From Erysipelothrix sp. (GTDB lineage: Bacteria > Bacillota_I > Bacilli_A > Erysipelotrichales > Erysipelotrichaceae), in assembly GCA_018335655.1 (NCBI GenBank), contig JAGXRX010000007.1, positions 1 to 64,000 on the forward strand: 64,000 nt of DNA, read 5' to 3'. The translations under genes were made by a program, and so were the position numbers. Below the pieces are notes generated by a model. That model was not told where the DNA came from. It searched no databases and worked only from the letters and a program-made list of their open reading frames with translations. Of the stretch, positions 1,185-59,404 are shown piece after piece (position 1 is the stretch's first letter; the number at the start of each line of letters is the position of its first letter).

Positions 1185-2234
1185 ATGGATATGAAAGCAA
1201 AAGTATTACAAACATTAAGAAGTGATAGAGACACCATTGTGGAAAATATTGTGGGTAGTCAAGTATCAACTGGGAAATTTTCGAATGTTCAAAGACAAGC
1301 TTCTATTAGAGATGCAAAATATAATATTGACTATCTTGCGAGTGCTATAGAGATTGATAGTAAGGCAAATTTCAATGCATATGTCATATGGCTTAGAGAT
1401 ATACTAAGAACTTACAATCTTGAAGACAAGATGCTTGTTGATCATCTCAATAGTTTGCTTGACTATGTAGTATCTCGATATTCTGAGGAATTTGGTCATG
1501 TGATTGAACCATACATTACTGAAGGTATTTCGAGTATTCAAAATGGAAAAGGTGAAGAGTTTTCGTATTTAGATTCAAGTGAAGAATTTTTACCACTCGC
1601 ATATTCTTACTTTAACGCATTAATTGAAATGGATAAAAATAAAGCCGTTAGATTGATATTAGATATTGTTGAGAAGGACGAAGTCTCTATTAAAGACTTA
1701 TATTTGCATGTTTTTACTAATGTTTTATATGAGATTGGTCGCTACTGGGCAATGAGAAAAATTACGGTAGGACAAGAACATTTCGCAACTGCGGTTACTG
1801 TTTATACAATGTCATTACTGTATGATAAGATTTTTAGAATTGAAAAGAAAGATTATAAAATGATTGGAGTATGTGTAGGTGATGAACTACATGAGATTGG
1901 CATAAGAATGGTATGTGATATTTTTGAACTAAGCAAATGGGATACGTATTATTTAGGAGCGAATGTCCCTAACGAAAGTGTTCTAAGTGAACTTAGAAGA
2001 GTTAATCCTGATATTTTAGCTATATCTGTAACTCTAGCAAACAAAGTACCAGCGTGTATTGAGTTAATTAGTTTAATAAAAAGAGAATACCCTAACATCA
2101 AAATCATTGTAGGTGGACGACCTTTTAACACTGACAATGAACTATGGAAAACAGTAGGTGCAGATGGGTATAGTGTCGATGCGAACGATGCTGTAGAAAC
2201 TGCTAAGCGATTGGTGGGGGATTTACATGGATGA
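1185..2234 (+). CDS. Cobalamin B12-binding domain protein, CarH/MtaC-like sensor without an evident DNA-binding domain
   Basis: W-x9-EH (WAMRKITVGQEH) in the helical cap; ExHxxG (ELHEIG) B12-binding motif; C-terminal GG motif (IIVGGRPF). Confidence 0.85.
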   Translation: MDMKAKVLQTLRSDRDTIVENIVGSQVSTGKFSNVQRQASIRDAKYNIDYLASAIEIDSKANFNAYVIWLRDILRTYNLEDKMLVDHLNSLLDYVVSRYSEEFGHVIEPYITEGISSIQNGKGEEFSYLDSSEEFLPLAYSYFNALIEMDKNKAVRLILDIVEKDEVSIKDLYLHVFTNVLYEIGRYWAMRKITVGQEHFATAVTVYTMSLLYDKIFRIEKKDYKMIGVCVGDELHEIGIRMVCDIFELSKWDTYYLGANVPNESVLSELRRVNPDILAISVTLANKVPACIELISLIKREYPNIKIIVGGRPFNTDNELWKTVGADGYSVDANDAVETAKRLVGDLHG

Positions 2235-3189
2235 TCAAATTTTTAAAAACGTCTTTTTATATATTTGCGATAAAGAAGGCCACATTAAAACAGTTGTTAA
2301 CTCAATAATTGAAAATCAAACTATAGAAATAGATGAAAAAATATATGATCGTGTATTACCAGATGGTGAGGCACTTTGGAATTCTCATATTATTAACTCC
2401 AAGAGAGAAGATAATGTGCACTGGAAAGGTTTTCTAACGTGTTTAGGAGAAGAACCATATGCTTGTTATTTTGCTAGACTGAGTGAAAATCAAATAATGG
2501 TTTTAGGAATGAAGAATGAAATTCAACGATATTTATATGAAGAAATGCTAAAAATAAACGGTAAACTGACTAATAAAGTTAGAGGATTATATAAAGAGAA
2601 GACTATAATTAAGGAAAATGAGTATGAAGAAATTTCAAAAATGAATAATGAACTTTCAAATGCAAGAAGAGAATTAGTCAAGAATAACTATAAACTTGAA
2701 GAACTGAATCAAAAGTTAGAACAATTAACTATTAAAGATTTTTTAACCGATTTATATAATCGACGACATTTTTATTCATTTTCACGTGATGTTGCCAATA
2801 GAGCAAAGCGATTGGGCTATGCTTGTTGCTTAATTATGATTGACATAAATGGGTTTAAAAGCACCAATGATAATTTTGGCCATGATGTTGGTGATTCTCT
2901 TTTAGTTCACCTTTCAATGTGCATGAAAAACACATTTAGACATGGGCAAGATACTATATTTAGATTTGGGGGCGATGAATTTTTAGTTTTGCTTGAAGCT
3001 TCAAACTATAATGATTCTTTGGCGGCGATGAAACGATTAAATCAACTGTACGAACAAGACTCAAAAGGAACTTCTTTAGCAGCAGGTATTGTTGAAATAA
3101 AGCATGACGAAATCCAGGAAAATTTTGATGAGTTCATTAAAAAAGCAGATGAATTAATGTATCTAGAAAAAAAGAATGCGAGAGATTAG
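2227..3189 (+). CDS. GGDEF domain protein (putative diguanylate cyclase)
   Basis: FRFGGDEFLVLL active site, DFLTDLYNRRHF; coiled coil before GGDEF; start overlaps upstream CDS by 8 bp with GGGGG RBS. Confidence 0.9.
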   Translation: MDDQIFKNVFLYICDKEGHIKTVVNSIIENQTIEIDEKIYDRVLPDGEALWNSHIINSKREDNVHWKGFLTCLGEEPYACYFARLSENQIMVLGMKNEIQRYLYEEMLKINGKLTNKVRGLYKEKTIIKENEYEEISKMNNELSNARRELVKNNYKLEELNQKLEQLTIKDFLTDLYNRRHFYSFSRDVANRAKRLGYACCLIMIDINGFKSTNDNFGHDVGDSLLVHLSMCMKNTFRHGQDTIFRFGGDEFLVLLEASNYNDSLAAMKRLNQLYEQDSKGTSLAAGIVEIKHDEIQENFDEFIKKADELMYLEKKNARD

Positions 3190-3475: not shown

Positions 3476-4345
3476 ATGTCATTAAGCCCATATGAGTACA
3501 AGAGTATTGTAGAGACAGCACCTAACCTAATATGGAGATCAGGTCTTGATGCAAAGTGTTATTATTTTAATAAAACATGGCTCGATTTTACGGGTCGATC
3601 TTTTGAACAAGAATTTGGTGATGGATGGGCAGAAGGCGTGCATCCCGATGATTTAGATCGATGCATAAGCATATATTTAGAAAGCTTTAATAAAAGAATC
3701 CGATTTGAAATGGAATATCGATTACGTCGTCATGATGGTGAGTGGAGATGGATTAATGACATTGGTGTGCCTGCGATTGATGAAAATGGCGACTTCAGTG
3801 GTTTTATAGGAAGTTGCTTAGATGTTACTGAAAGAGTCGTAGGGTTCTTGCTAAAAGAAATGGCTCAAAAAGATGGATTGACAGAAACTCTAAGCCGTCA
3901 GTATTTAATAAATCTTTTTGAACATGAATTTGAATCTGCGAAGAGAACAGGTAGCAAACTATCAGTAGCTATGATTGATATTGATAAGTTTAAGAGCATA
4001 AATGATTTATATGGGCACTTAGGTGGTGATTGTGCACTAAGAATGTTTTCATCTGTCGTTAAAGATACAATACGTCAAAATGATTTATTTGGTCGATATG
4101 GTGGGGATGAGTTTTTGGTTATATTTCCTAATAATTCAATTGACGAGGCCAGTAAAATAATTGATAGAATCAAAAGTGAATTAACAAAATCAACTTTAAA
4201 GCTAGAAGACGATGAAATCACATTATCAATTAGTGTTGGTCTTTGTGAGTTAAATGATGAAGATTCTCCTGAAGAATTAATTAAGAAAGCTGACAAAAAG
4301 ATGTATGATGTAAAAAAGGAAAGTAAGACTTTAAGAGGAGTTTAA
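3476..4345 (+). CDS. PAS-GGDEF diguanylate cyclase
   Basis: PAS/PAC (YRLRRHDGEWRWINDIGVPAIDENGDFSGFIGSCLDVTER), RQNDLFGRYGGDEF with RxxD I-site; ATG at 3476 after GAGGGG RBS. Confidence 0.92.
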   Translation: MSLSPYEYKSIVETAPNLIWRSGLDAKCYYFNKTWLDFTGRSFEQEFGDGWAEGVHPDDLDRCISIYLESFNKRIRFEMEYRLRRHDGEWRWINDIGVPAIDENGDFSGFIGSCLDVTERVVGFLLKEMAQKDGLTETLSRQYLINLFEHEFESAKRTGSKLSVAMIDIDKFKSINDLYGHLGGDCALRMFSSVVKDTIRQNDLFGRYGGDEFLVIFPNNSIDEASKIIDRIKSELTKSTLKLEDDEITLSISVGLCELNDEDSPEELIKKADKKMYDVKKESKTLRGV

Positions 4346-4687: not shown

Positions 4688-6793
4688 ATGAACAAAAAAA
4701 CTACGGGTCATAATCACAATCATGAGAATCATATGAATAACAGTCATCAAGATAATATAGCTAAGAAAGATGAAAATGATGATCATATTATGAGTGATCA
4801 TGATACACATCAAGAGACACAAGCAACAAATAAACATGATGGACATCATGATCATCATGCAATGATGGCTAATGATTTTAAGCGAAGATTTTTTATCTCG
4901 CTTTTTTTAATGTTTCCAATTTTAATCTTATCTCCAATGATTCAGATGTTTTTGAGCGTTGATTGGAGGTTTGCAGGGGATAGTTATATATTATTCGCAC
5001 TATCAACGATCCTATTTATTTATGGAGGTAAACCCTTCTTAATAGGGGCAGTTGGTGAACTAAAAAAGAAATCCCCAGCAATGATGACATTAATAGCCTT
5101 TGCTATTACTGTGTCCTATATATATAGTACATTCGCTGTATTCTTGTCGATAGGAAATGATTTTTTCTGGGAGTTAGCAACATTAATTGTCATTATGTTA
5201 TTAGGTCACTGGATTGAAATGAAGTCAGTCATGGGAGCATCAAGAGCATTAGATGAACTCCTTAAACTAATGCCTGAAGAAGCACATCTAATTAATGAAA
5301 ATGGTGAAACTGAAACTGTACTAGTTGCTAATCTTAAAACTGGCGATAACATCTTAGTTAAACCTGGTGAAAAAATCCCAATTGATGGAATAGTATTTGA
5401 TGGTAATTCTGAAGTCAATGAATCAATGATTACTGGTGAATCTGTTCCGGTAGAAAAATCAGATGGTGATGAAATCATTGGTGGTTCAATTAATGGAGAA
5501 GGAATATTGAAGTTTAAGGTAAGCAAAGTTGGAGACGAAACATTTCTTTCTCAGGTTGTAAAACTTGTTAAAGAGGCACAAGAATCTAAATCTCATACCC
5601 AAAGATTGGCTGATACAGCTGCGAAATGGCTTTTCTACTTGGCAATATCTGCTGGGACCTTAACCTTTGGTGTATGGATGTCTCTTGGTAGTGAACTAAG
5701 TTTTGCTATGGAAAGAGCAGTTACTGTAATTATCATCTCATGTCCTCATGCACTTGGACTCGCAATTCCTTTAGTCACTGCTGTTTCTACTAGTATAGGG
5801 GCAAAAAGTGGACTACTTATTAGAGATCGCAGTGCATTTGAAAACGCAAGAAAGATTAATTCAGTGGTATTTGATAAAACAGGCACTCTAACAAAAGGAG
5901 AGTTTGGTATCACGGATATGAAAGCCATTAATATTACTGAGGATGAACTACTTTCTATTGCTTATTCTTTAGAATCAAACTCGGAACATCCAATTGCGAA
6001 TGGAATAGTCAATGAAGGCAAGAAAAGAAATCTTGAATTAAGAGATGTTAGTGATTTTCAAAATCTTACTGGTAAAGGATTACAAGGAAGCATTAATAAT
6101 AAAAAAATCATGGTTGTAAGCCCAGGGTACATCAGAAGCAATAATATAGAATTTGATGAGCAGTATTATGAAGATTTAGCTCAACAAGGTAAAACTGTGG
6201 TCTTTGTCCTTGAAGACAATAAACTTATTGGATACATTGCCTTAACAGATATTATAAGAGATTCCGCTAAAGAAGCTATCGACACGTTAAGATCAATGGG
6301 AATAGAATCAATCATGTTAACTGGAGACAATCAAAAAGTAGCATCCTATGTCGGTGAAAAACTGGCGATTGATACGATTATTGCAGAAGTATTACCTCAA
6401 GAAAAGTCAGCCAAAATAGATGAACTTATTAAAAAAGGAAGAATTGTAGCAATGACAGGAGATGGTGTTAATGATGCACCATCCTTAGCACGCGCAGATC
6501 TTGGTATTGCGATAGGAGCAGGAACTGATGTTGCTATTGAAACAGCTGATATAATATTAGTAAAGAGTAATCCACTCGATGTAGTAAACATTATAAAACT
6601 ATCAAAGGCTACTTACAAAAAGATGGTGCAGAATTTAATCTGGGCTACAGGGTATAATTTAATAGCACTTCCGCTTGCATCTGGAATTTTATATAATCAA
6701 GGAATTGTAATTAGCCCAGCAGTTGGTGCAGGGTTAATGTCTTTAAGCACAATCATTGTAGCTATTAATGCTAGATTTCTAAGAATTGATTAG
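4688..6793 (+). CDS. copB: Heavy-metal P1B-type ATPase, CopB-like (copper)
   Basis: CPH transmembrane motif (IISCPHALGLAIP), DKTGT, TGES, GDGVNDAP; His-rich N-terminus (HNHNHENHMN...HHDHHAMM). Confidence 0.93.
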   Translation: MNKKTTGHNHNHENHMNNSHQDNIAKKDENDDHIMSDHDTHQETQATNKHDGHHDHHAMMANDFKRRFFISLFLMFPILILSPMIQMFLSVDWRFAGDSYILFALSTILFIYGGKPFLIGAVGELKKKSPAMMTLIAFAITVSYIYSTFAVFLSIGNDFFWELATLIVIMLLGHWIEMKSVMGASRALDELLKLMPEEAHLINENGETETVLVANLKTGDNILVKPGEKIPIDGIVFDGNSEVNESMITGESVPVEKSDGDEIIGGSINGEGILKFKVSKVGDETFLSQVVKLVKEAQESKSHTQRLADTAAKWLFYLAISAGTLTFGVWMSLGSELSFAMERAVTVIIISCPHALGLAIPLVTAVSTSIGAKSGLLIRDRSAFENARKINSVVFDKTGTLTKGEFGITDMKAINITEDELLSIAYSLESNSEHPIANGIVNEGKKRNLELRDVSDFQNLTGKGLQGSINNKKIMVVSPGYIRSNNIEFDEQYYEDLAQQGKTVVFVLEDNKLIGYIALTDIIRDSAKEAIDTLRSMGIESIMLTGDNQKVASYVGEKLAIDTIIAEVLPQEKSAKIDELIKKGRIVAMTGDGVNDAPSLARADLGIAIGAGTDVAIETADIILVKSNPLDVVNIIKLSKATYKKMVQNLIWATGYNLIALPLASGILYNQGIVISPAVGAGLMSLSTIIVAINARFLRID

Positions 6794-6862
6794 TCTGATT
6801 GGATATAAGTATTAAAAGAACATAGACTTGAACTTATATAATATTTGAAATGAGGTGCAAAC

Positions 6863-8281
6863 ATGCAAAACAGAATTTTAATAAGAAGTGCTTTAGCAAT
6901 TGTGATAATAGTACTGTTTTACTTTGCACTAAATTTTTACAATACTCTAAATAACCCAATAAATACTAATGGTAATCAATCAGTTAATAAACCTTTACCA
7001 ATTCCAACTTTATTAGAACCATTTAAGACAGATGAGTCATCCTCAGACTACGATATAAAAGTTCAAAAAGGCACAACTAACTTTATTGGAGACATGCAAA
7101 CACCAACAATGGGATATAATGGAAGCTTTTTAGGACCCGTCATTAAAGTAACTCGAGGTCAAGAAATCCGTATGCATGTAAGCAATGAACTTCAAGTTGA
7201 TACATCTGTTCATTGGCATGGACTTGAAGTCGAAGGATCAAAGGATGGAGGTCCTCATCAAGTCATTTCAGCAGGGTCACTATGGCAACCTTCTTTCACA
7301 ATAGATCAACCTGCCGCAACATTATGGTTTCATCCTCATGTCATCGGTACGACTGCGACTCAAGTTTATTATGGATTAGCAGGATTAATAATTGTTGAAG
7401 ATGAAAATTCAAAGTCACTTAATTTACCTGATGATTATGGTGTTAATGATATCCCACTAATTATTCAAGATAGAAGTTTTAATCGAAATGGTTCATTTAG
7501 ATACGATAACAATATGATGGATGGTGTAGTGGGTGACTATATTATGGTCAATGGGGCAATAACTCCTTATTTAGATGTTAAGCAAACTAAAATGCGTTTT
7601 AGAATTCTTAATGGTGCAAATGCAAGTAACTTTAATTTAAGACTTAGTGATGGTAATTTTCATCAAATTGCATCAGATGGAGGTTTACTTGAGAAACCGC
7701 TATTAACCAGAACATTATTTATCTCCCCAGGTGAGCGAGCTGAGATTATTATAGATTTTTCAAAGTATAAAGAAGGTGATAAGATTCGCTTAGTAAGTGA
7801 CAATGATTTGGTAATGACTTTTAATGTAGGTGCAGAAATGATTGATAATACTGTACTACCAGAAGTTTTAACAACCATTGAAAAACTCGATATAAATCAA
7901 GTGACGGCTATTAAGACAATTGAACTCGATGGTATGGGTCATATGGTTACATTAAATGGTCGCAAGTTTGATATTAATAGAATCGATGATAATGTTTCCC
8001 TTGGTGCTACTGAAATTTGGGAAATATCATCTACAAGAGGCATGATGATGAGCAGTCCAGGTCATCCATTTCATATTCATGGCACACAATTTCAAGTACT
8101 TAGCCGAAATGGTGGTGAACCAAGAGAAAATGAAAAAGGATGGAAAGATACAGTATTTGTGCGAACTGGAGAAACAGTAAGAATCATAGTACAGTTTAAG
8201 TACAAAGGAATCTTCATGTATCATTGCCATATCTTAGAACATGAAGAAGAAGGTATGATGGGACAATTGGAAGTTGAATAA
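6863..8281 (+). CDS. Multicopper oxidase
   Basis: HWHG, WFHPHV, HPFHIHGTQF and HCHILEHEEEGMM copper-ligand motifs; N-terminal signal/TM segment. Confidence 0.95.
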   Translation: MQNRILIRSALAIVIIVLFYFALNFYNTLNNPINTNGNQSVNKPLPIPTLLEPFKTDESSSDYDIKVQKGTTNFIGDMQTPTMGYNGSFLGPVIKVTRGQEIRMHVSNELQVDTSVHWHGLEVEGSKDGGPHQVISAGSLWQPSFTIDQPAATLWFHPHVIGTTATQVYYGLAGLIIVEDENSKSLNLPDDYGVNDIPLIIQDRSFNRNGSFRYDNNMMDGVVGDYIMVNGAITPYLDVKQTKMRFRILNGANASNFNLRLSDGNFHQIASDGGLLEKPLLTRTLFISPGERAEIIIDFSKYKEGDKIRLVSDNDLVMTFNVGAEMIDNTVLPEVLTTIEKLDINQVTAIKTIELDGMGHMVTLNGRKFDINRIDDNVSLGATEIWEISSTRGMMMSSPGHPFHIHGTQFQVLSRNGGEPRENEKGWKDTVFVRTGETVRIIVQFKYKGIFMYHCHILEHEEEGMMGQLEVE

Positions 8282-26280: not shown

Positions 26281-26309
26281 TTGACTAATAGTGGTGTATG
26301 TCATATTCT
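26281..26309 (+). promoter_or_regulatory. Sigma70-type promoter for the fluoride riboswitch transcript
   Basis: TTGACT-N17-TATTCT ending a few nt before the aptamer. Confidence 0.75.
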
Positions 26310-26313
26310 TGTC

Positions 26314-26371
26314 ATGGGAATGAAATCTCCCATGGGAAACCAAAACTGCGAACTCGCTGATGACTTCTGTG
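26314..26371 (+). ncRNA. Fluoride riboswitch (crcB motif)
   Basis: ATGGGAATGAAATCTCCCATGGGAAACCAAAACTGCGAACTCGCTGATGACTTCTGTG: GGG-aAUG...CCC stem, AAACUGC and GCUGAUGACUUCU match the crcB consensus order. Confidence 0.82.
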
Positions 26372-26398
26372 TTTTTTGAAGTACATTGGCTTTTTTTT
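26356..26398 (+). terminator. Riboswitch expression-platform terminator
   Basis: GCTGATGACTTC-TGTGTTTTTT-GAAGTACATTGGC-TTTTTTTT; the 5' arm is the 3' half of the aptamer. Confidence 0.82.
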
Positions 26399-53720: not shown

Positions 53721-54995
53721 ATGACTAAACCTGTTGTTTATTGGACAAGTCGTGCGCTTCGTGTTCGTGATAATCCAGCTTTATCTTATGCACAACATCT
53801 TGCGTTTGAAAAAAAAGTACCACTCAAAGTTGTCTTTGTTGTCTATCCTCATTTTCCATATGCTAATGAGCGTAATATGCACTTTCTTTTGAGTGGTCTA
53901 AAAGAAATGCAAGATAAACTTAAACTGCTTAATATCCCACTTGAATGTATCCTTAAAGATCCAGTTGAATATTTTCAAGAACACACTCAACACTTTGAAG
54001 CAATAGTCATGGATCATCATGTTTTAAAACCAGTAATCGCAACTCAAAAGCGTGTTATTGAGCATGCTAAAACAGTGAATGTGAAAACGTATGTCTTAAG
54101 TGTTGCACCTGTTGTCCCAGTGGAAGTTGCTAGTCCAAAACTAGAATTTTCTGCGCGCACAATTAGACCTAAGATTATGGGTCAATACAAAGCATGGCTT
54201 CAAGAAGCTGAACCAGTTATTGCTCATAGTTTTAATAAAGAAAACTTAGAATTACCAGATATTGATGTAGATGCAATCATTAATGCTCATCCTCATTGGA
54301 AACAACTGAAACGATCAGTTCTAAAACCTGGAGAAGATGCTGCTTATAAACAACTAGAACACTTTATTAATAAAGGACTTCAACATTACGGTGACAGAAA
54401 TGAAATAGACTCACAAGGTCAATCTAATCTCTCAGCTTACCTACACTTTGGTATGATATCCCCCAAGGTTATGATTTCTAAAATAGAATCGACTCAATCT
54501 CCTCATGCACCACTTTTTGTAGAAGAAGCTTTAGTGCGAAGAGAACTAGCAGAAAACTATTGTCATTATCAAAAGAATTATGACTCGCTTGATGGTGCAT
54601 GGCCCTGGGCTAAGACAACACTGCTTGAGCATGTTCATGATCCACGCCTATTTGAATATAATCTTGAAACCTTTGAGCAAGCAAAAACTCATGATGCCTT
54701 ATGGAATCATTGTATGCAAACAATGATAGAAACTGGTTATTTACATTCCTATTTACGAATGTATTGGGCAAAAATGGTTTTGTATTGGACTAAGCATCCA
54801 GAGGATGCTATAAAGATTCTTATCCACCTTAATGATACTTACTTTCTAGATGGTCGTGATCCTAACGGTTATACTGGAATTATGTGGAGTGTTGCGGGTG
54901 TTCATGATCGCCCTTGGTTTAATCGACCTATTACAGGATTGATTAGAGCAATGGGACTTGAGGGAACATTAAAAAAGACGAAAATTCGTCTTTAA
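53721..54995 (+). CDS. phrB: Deoxyribodipyrimidine photolyase (cryptochrome/photolyase family)
   Basis: VYWTSRALRVRDNPALSYA, SNLSAYLHFGMISP, RRELAENYCHY, LDGRDPNGYTGIMWSVAGVHDRPW. Confidence 0.94.
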   Translation: MTKPVVYWTSRALRVRDNPALSYAQHLAFEKKVPLKVVFVVYPHFPYANERNMHFLLSGLKEMQDKLKLLNIPLECILKDPVEYFQEHTQHFEAIVMDHHVLKPVIATQKRVIEHAKTVNVKTYVLSVAPVVPVEVASPKLEFSARTIRPKIMGQYKAWLQEAEPVIAHSFNKENLELPDIDVDAIINAHPHWKQLKRSVLKPGEDAAYKQLEHFINKGLQHYGDRNEIDSQGQSNLSAYLHFGMISPKVMISKIESTQSPHAPLFVEEALVRRELAENYCHYQKNYDSLDGAWPWAKTTLLEHVHDPRLFEYNLETFEQAKTHDALWNHCMQTMIETGYLHSYLRMYWAKMVLYWTKHPEDAIKILIHLNDTYFLDGRDPNGYTGIMWSVAGVHDRPWFNRPITGLIRAMGLEGTLKKTKIRL

Positions 54996-59195: not shown

Positions 59196-59312
59196 AAATA
59201 TCAATAAGTATTTGTTATGCTTTTATAAAGAATAATTGATAAAGGTATTTAAACGTTTATTCAAAACCTATTGAAAAATATGGGATAATTTGTTAAACTT
59301 TGTTCAGCTAAA

Positions 59313-59384
59313 CACCGTATATCCTCGTGAATATGGCACGAGAGTTTCTACCCAACGACCGTAAACTGTTGGACTACGATGGAA
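59313..59384 (+). ncRNA. Purine riboswitch, guanine-type (C74)
   Basis: CACCGTATATCCTCGTGAATATGGCACGAGAGTTTCTACCCAACGACCGTAAACTGTTGGACTACGATGG. Confidence 0.97.
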
Positions 59385-59404
59385 CACCGCATCTTTTCTG
59401 CGTG

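Follow-up and report, generated by a model that had tools for sequence, protein, structure and literature searches.

A photocobilin-like B12 receptor gene overlapping the gene of a predicted diguanylate cyclase in Erysipelothrix sp.: a candidate two-protein switch

The stretch of Erysipelothrix sp. DNA considered here (64,000 nucleotides, hereafter the window) forms the left end of contig C7 and carries two overlapping genes, ORF A and ORF B, whose features are as follows:

1185..2234 (+): ORF A, 349 aa from an ATG start, a predicted sensor with an N-terminal photoglobin, a B12 cap and a B12-binding domain
1242..1544 (+): photoglobin (phycobiliprotein-like) domain of ORF A, residues ~20-120, assigned from sequence
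1608..1802 (+): B12 cap helical bundle of ORF A (Pfam B12-binding_2, residues 142-206), with GRYW188-x9-E198-H199
1857..2195 (+): B12-binding Rossmann domain of ORF A, residues 225-337, with E234-L-H236-E-I-G and G258-A-N-V-P262
2213..2234 (+): ribosome-binding-like site, GGTGGGGG, then the 8-bp stop/start overlap, ATGGATGA
2227..3189 (+): ORF B, 320 aa from an ATG start, in which the GGDEF domain is preceded by an N-terminal region that matches nothing in Pfam and by a coiled-coil-like stretch
2227..2730 (+): N-terminal region of ORF B, residues 1-168, the last part of which is EISKMNNELSNARRELVKNNYKLEELN
2734..3186 (+): GGDEF domain of ORF B, with an intact RFGGDEF and without a canonical RxxD I-site

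The 8 bp ATGGATGA are common to the stop of ORF A and the start of ORF B, and GGTGGGGG stands at 2213-2220, ahead of the ORF B start; from this arrangement we infer that the two genes are translationally coupled. Both reading frames (1185-2234 and 2227-3189), their 8-bp overlap and the G-rich ribosome-binding site had been described in an initial annotation, together with an ExHxxG motif (E234-L-H236-E-I-G239) and a W-x9-EH motif (G185-R-Y-W188-(9)-E198-H199) in a protein without a MerR HTH, and all of these are present. Upstream of ORF A lies a gene in the opposite orientation whose sequence points to a MATE-type transporter, so that ORF A probably heads its unit. No promoter or terminator around the pair was convincing when compared with shuffled sequences. 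A second contig, C53, is identical to positions 1-2058 of the window and adds 1841 bases upstream, so that C7 and C53 can be joined. About 290 bp 3' of ORF B lies a PAS-GGDEF gene (3476-4345), and such a gene likewise follows the pair in UBA6182 (L004). Elsewhere, the window contains a His-rich heavy-metal P-type ATPase-like gene adjoining a multicopper oxidase-like gene (4688-8281), a fluoride riboswitch 5' of a cation/proton antiporter-like gene (26307-26376) and a purine riboswitch 5' of an NCS2-like permease gene (59295-59396). The photolyase-like gene at 53721-54995, which had already been regarded as unlinked to the pair, has a position that does not support a link.

The domain identity of both proteins is assigned from their sequences. 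Pfam searches place B12-binding_2 at residues 142-206 (1e-10) and B12-binding at residues 225-337 (3.7e-23) of ORF A, in which they find no MerR HTH, and GGDEF (PF00990) at residues 170-319 of ORF B (2.4e-30), whose intact RFGGDEF motif predicts a diguanylate cyclase. The photoglobin domain at residues ~20-120 of ORF A had been overlooked, and it is this domain that defines the closest family. Among PDB entries, photocobilins match ORF A best (8j2y, 1.5e-18; 8j2w and 8j2x, 1.3e-17), followed by CtMerR; the photocobilin matches are strong in the B12 region and weak in the globin region, where they nevertheless fall at ligand residues. Photocobilins are again the best PDB matches for a six-row profile of full-length relatives, in which residues 34-82 of ORF A are matched, in each photocobilin, to the domain that binds bilin (domain E 0.14-0.9), D43 corresponding to SasPcob Asp270 and W69 to SasPcob Trp296 (SasPcob numbering is the chain index + 6, verified on His108 and Trp61). 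Both SasPcob residues have been named as biliverdin contacts, and AbPcob has a His at the Asp270 site, in agreement with the same work (PMC10979010). D43 is kept in 26 of the 31 aligned family proteins and W69 in 31 of 31, and the conservation of the latter need not mean bilin, since SasPcob Trp296 also touches the corrin.

The photoglobin assignment leans on a bridge through Azospirillum. An N-terminal profile that includes Azospirillum rows matches photocobilins (2e-5) and dozens of phycobiliproteins in the PDB, whereas a Bacillota-only profile is weak (best 0.016); in hhalign against the globin of a Streptomyces photocobilin, the N-terminal profile reaches 96.5% and the Bacillota rows by themselves 93.0%, a weaker result that agrees with the former. 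The N-terminus of the Azospirillum thermophilum homologue exceeds the Pfam Phycobilisome cut-off (3.7e-9) and matches that of the window protein with an E value of 6e-11. The CxRD site of phycobiliproteins reads S40-I-R-D43 in ORF A and C-V-E-D in Azospirillum and Skermanella, and among these only the latter two could attach a bilin via the CxRD Cys, because ORF A has Ser40 there. An AlphaFold model of ORF A from a two-sequence input (window and UBA6182) is poor (pLDDT 49). The tendon repeat protein 7rdr, top PDB match of profile A5, was rejected as a repeat artefact, single stretches giving i-E >100.

As for the B12 site, its ligand residues are conserved: G185, W188, E198, H199, H236, G239 and G258 are invariant in the 31 aligned family proteins, and the lower-ligand His, found in an E/DxH motif (E234-L-H236 in ORF A), is likewise His in 31/31. 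Since these cap and B12 residues are identical in 31/31 and the partner gene recurs downstream, the motifs of ORF A are not a matter of chance. Light-responsive cobalamin-binding domains bear the signature GxxW, EH, GxxH and GxxxP (PMC11796333). Three of its elements are present in ORF A as G185RYW, E198H199 and G258ANVP, whereas GxxH is not strictly matched, G232-D-E-L-H236 being one residue longer with the ExH retained; D233 stands where SasPcob has Gly, and the family mostly reads G-x-E-L-H at this site. Position 189, equivalent to CarH His132, is His in 12, Gln in 12, Ala in 2, Tyr in 2 and another residue in 3 of the 31 proteins, the window protein having Ala189. The initial annotation had cautioned that an Ala after the Trp, in place of the CarH His, might change the chemistry; this carries little weight, because CtMerR, SasPcob and AbDPcob have Arg, Gln and Tyr there, respectively, and all three are light-responsive (PMC11796333). 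In TtCarH, the H132A variant undergoes a modest rearrangement after light and does not monomerise (PMC11796333), so the window protein may similarly change shape while staying a dimer.

The pairing of sensor and partner is conserved well beyond the window. The relatives come from genomes that belong to the same order and class as the window, the closest being UBA6182 (Erysipelotrichaceae, Bacillota), and the survey of genes beside W-x9-EH sensors that had been proposed earlier returned a partner gene directly 3' of the sensor at 27/27 open Bacillota loci, the window included, as well as in Ilyobacter (Fusobacteriota). At 26 of the 27 loci the partner ORF exceeds 250 aa, and at the remaining one (L048) the contig ends within it; a locus with a broken sensor (L051) was left out of this count. 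With mechanically chosen starts, most pairs overlap by 1 to ~98 bases, two being spaced by 2 and 31 bases, and the order is kept at protein identities down to ~25%. The partner motif is GGDEF, AGDEF or SGDEF in all but one case, a 256-aa protein (L012) that may signal without catalysis, since its motif is gone. The I-site RxxD serves feedback and is not needed for diguanylate cyclase activity. None of the 26 partners carries it, and the usual product feedback is therefore unlikely in them.

The output domain is exchanged outside these phyla: GGDEF is found in Bacillota and Fusobacteriota, and a histidine kinase in Azospirillum. In Azospirillum brasilense the gene after the sensor has HisKA and HATPase in place of GGDEF, and the N-terminus of this kinase aligns in 158 columns to that of the Bacillota partners (hhalign 96.9%), the alignment being strongest in the coiled coil, which is of a common type. 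The kinase of Azospirillum thermophilum is annotated as two overlapping ORFs, and the Skermanella sensors have no adjacent co-directed partner. A scan of viral contigs found no relatives, and plasmids gave no match when searched with just the N-terminus of ORF B. Some of the relatives' loci (L013, L014, L024, L057 and L062) encode B12-binding proteins of ~215 aa (1510-2142 in L013) with an H(E/D)(I/L)G-type site and without W-x9-EH; their genes overlap or adjoin an FtsX/MacB-like permease gene, which in L013 is followed by an ABC ATPase gene.

Could ORF A instead be the corrinoid protein of a methyltransferase system, of the MtaC/MtbC/MtgC type? Its best NCBIfam scores are indeed to MtgC and MtbC (2e-15 and 2.5e-12) rather than CarH (8e-8), although all lie far below the cut-offs, the relatives score best as CarH, and the photoglobin is an extra domain. 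In a tree of the B12 region, the window protein groups with UBA6182 (100/100), then with Azospirillum and Skermanella (94/81), within a 30-row photoglobin-B12 clade (97/90) that leaves Ilyobacter outside, and the corrinoid methyltransferase subunits and MetH form a distinct group (100/98); branches are long at the forks around photocobilins, CarH and methyltransferase subunits. Given its closeness to Azospirillum, the sensor gene may have been horizontally transferred. Neither MTTB, the methyltransferase family searched for in the host genome, nor a methyltransferase adjoining the pair was found. Thus, one outcome that the initial annotation had named as fatal to its reading, a methyltransferase-subunit phylogeny with a partner enzyme, did not materialise; this role is rejected by the B12-domain tree and the absence of MTTB, and it is most improbable. 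Equally improbable is a coincidental gene overlap: the genome is rich in GGDEF domains, one of them in the gene that closely follows ORF B, but none of the 27 open Bacillota loci departs from the order, which mostly comes with overlap and is also kept in Ilyobacter, despite the low identities.

The host genome (1.65 Mb, 90% complete) has the capacity to make AdoCbl: a gene for a PduO-type adenosyltransferase lies together with a cobalamin riboswitch and two genes for membrane or secreted proteins. A glutamate-mutase-type operon is assigned from its ORFs and a B12 match, and the genome encodes 21 GGDEF and 5 EAL domains, with no match to PilZ. Heme oxygenase (PF01126) is absent from this genome and from the 25 other sensor-bearing genomes. 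Since none was found, biliverdin is probably not made in the host and AdoCbl is the likely chromophore; a bilin, if used, would come from outside or by another route. These findings bear on two further explanations. ORF A might be an AdoCbl-availability sensor that reports coenzyme supply, for instance for glutamate mutase, to the cyclase, light being incidental. The mutase operon, the riboswitch 5' of the adenosyltransferase gene and the missing heme oxygenase agree with this, as does AbDPcob, whose cyclase is less active with AdoCbl bound, even in the dark, than in the apo form (PMC10979010), and for the last reason ligand and light sensing are not exclusive. We nevertheless consider it unlikely, given the invariance of the W-x9-EH cap, by which the adenosyl group is held and its loss reported, and given that such a sensor has no obvious need of a photoglobin that keeps its ligand-type residues. 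A sensor of redox or another cobalamin state, or one whose main signal is a photoglobin ligand other than biliverdin, is improbable: the full conservation of the adenosyl-pocket residues and the fit of Gln or Tyr at 189 with the light response of photocobilins oppose it, even if it would accommodate both the lack of a heme oxygenase in 26 genomes despite the retention of D43 and W69, and the Ala189 that removes the CarH bis-His light state.

By sequence, ORF A thus appears to be a homologue of photocobilins in which the globin precedes the B12 part and the cyclase is a protein of its own. The reading that we favour, and hold to be reasonably probable, is that the two proteins form a B12-dependent switch in which this homologue acts in trans on the co-translated diguanylate cyclase; the earlier proposal that a CarH-like AdoCbl sensor passes its state by contact to a coupled cyclase is partly supported, namely by conservation and by the in-trans precedent (PMC10979010). 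By analogy with CarH and photocobilins, we infer AdoCbl binding, a light response and physical contact. In the dark, W188 would pack against the adenosyl group of bound AdoCbl and E198-H199 would lie at the dimer interface, while the photoglobin would cover the corrin edge via W69. Light would break the Co-C bond, upon which the adenosyl group would depart and the E-H helix shift, and the N-terminal region and coiled coil of ORF B would sense the new conformation of ORF A through contact, so that GGDEF dimerisation and the synthesis of c-di-GMP would change. Since no heme oxygenase was found, AdoCbl alone would be the default chromophore, with a response to green or blue light. The sign of the effect on ORF B is unpredictable, because SasPcob without biliverdin acts in trans with the reverse sign (PMC10979010), and the more so where biliverdin is lacking.

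ORF A shares with CarH (Thermus thermophilus) and CtMerR the AdoCbl cap residues, including W-x9-EH, and differs from them in the lack of a MerR HTH, in the Ala in place of His132 and in the extra photoglobin; the predicted output of the pair is c-di-GMP synthesis, whereas theirs is DNA binding. AerR/PpaA is also an HTH-less B12 protein that acts on a partner protein, the repressor CrtJ, and by this description it resembles ORF A with its proposed partner. In the photoglobin-B12 proteins of Schneider et al. 2022, the globin-B12 pairing is said to be tied to prokaryotic signalling domains, a combination also seen here. The closest likeness is to the photocobilins SasPcob and AbDPcob, with which ORF A shares the CarH-like B12 cap and Rossmann domain, W-x9-EH, ExH, and a phycobiliprotein-like globin whose biliverdin-contact positions hold Asp and Trp, as well as, in the AbDPcob fusion, the link to a diguanylate cyclase (PMC10979010). 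In contrast to them, the globin of ORF A is N-terminal, the cyclase is a separate, overlapping gene, and no heme oxygenase was found in its host or in 25 relatives. AbDPcob is inhibited in the dark and activated more than tenfold in the light, and in vitro photocobilins in the light state also activate a cyclase that is supplied in trans as an isolated protein (PMC10979010). Two photocobilin homologues on Streptomyces plasmids (L080, 2983-4077; L081, 3010-4071) have a PP2C phosphatase on one side and a STAS protein on the other, a neighbourhood in line with the partners predicted in PMC10979010.

Photocobilins with the B12 domain at either end, fused cyclases and in-trans control in vitro have thus already been published (PMC10979010). 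What is added here is that receptor and cyclase occur naturally as a conserved pair of genes, that a version with a kinase exists, and that the pair is spread among bacteria in which no heme oxygenase was found; none of this was seen in the published work consulted, although part may be contained in Schneider et al. 2022. More broadly, the family may represent a natural split photocobilin, in which a photoglobin-B12 receptor is served by a dedicated trans output with an exchangeable catalytic domain, and the bilin fold is recast in a structural or allosteric role within a c-di-GMP light switch that uses AdoCbl only, in bacteria without heme oxygenase; we put this forward tentatively, as a prospect not far short of even. 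The natural partners of unfused photocobilins had only been predicted, in-trans activation being known in vitro, and the ORF A-ORF B pair offers a matched receptor and output for a direct test of such control. The pair is likely a natural instance of enzyme control by a B12 photoreceptor through protein contact, and it raises the matter of what role a bilin-type domain plays in small-genome Bacillota in which no heme oxygenase is found.
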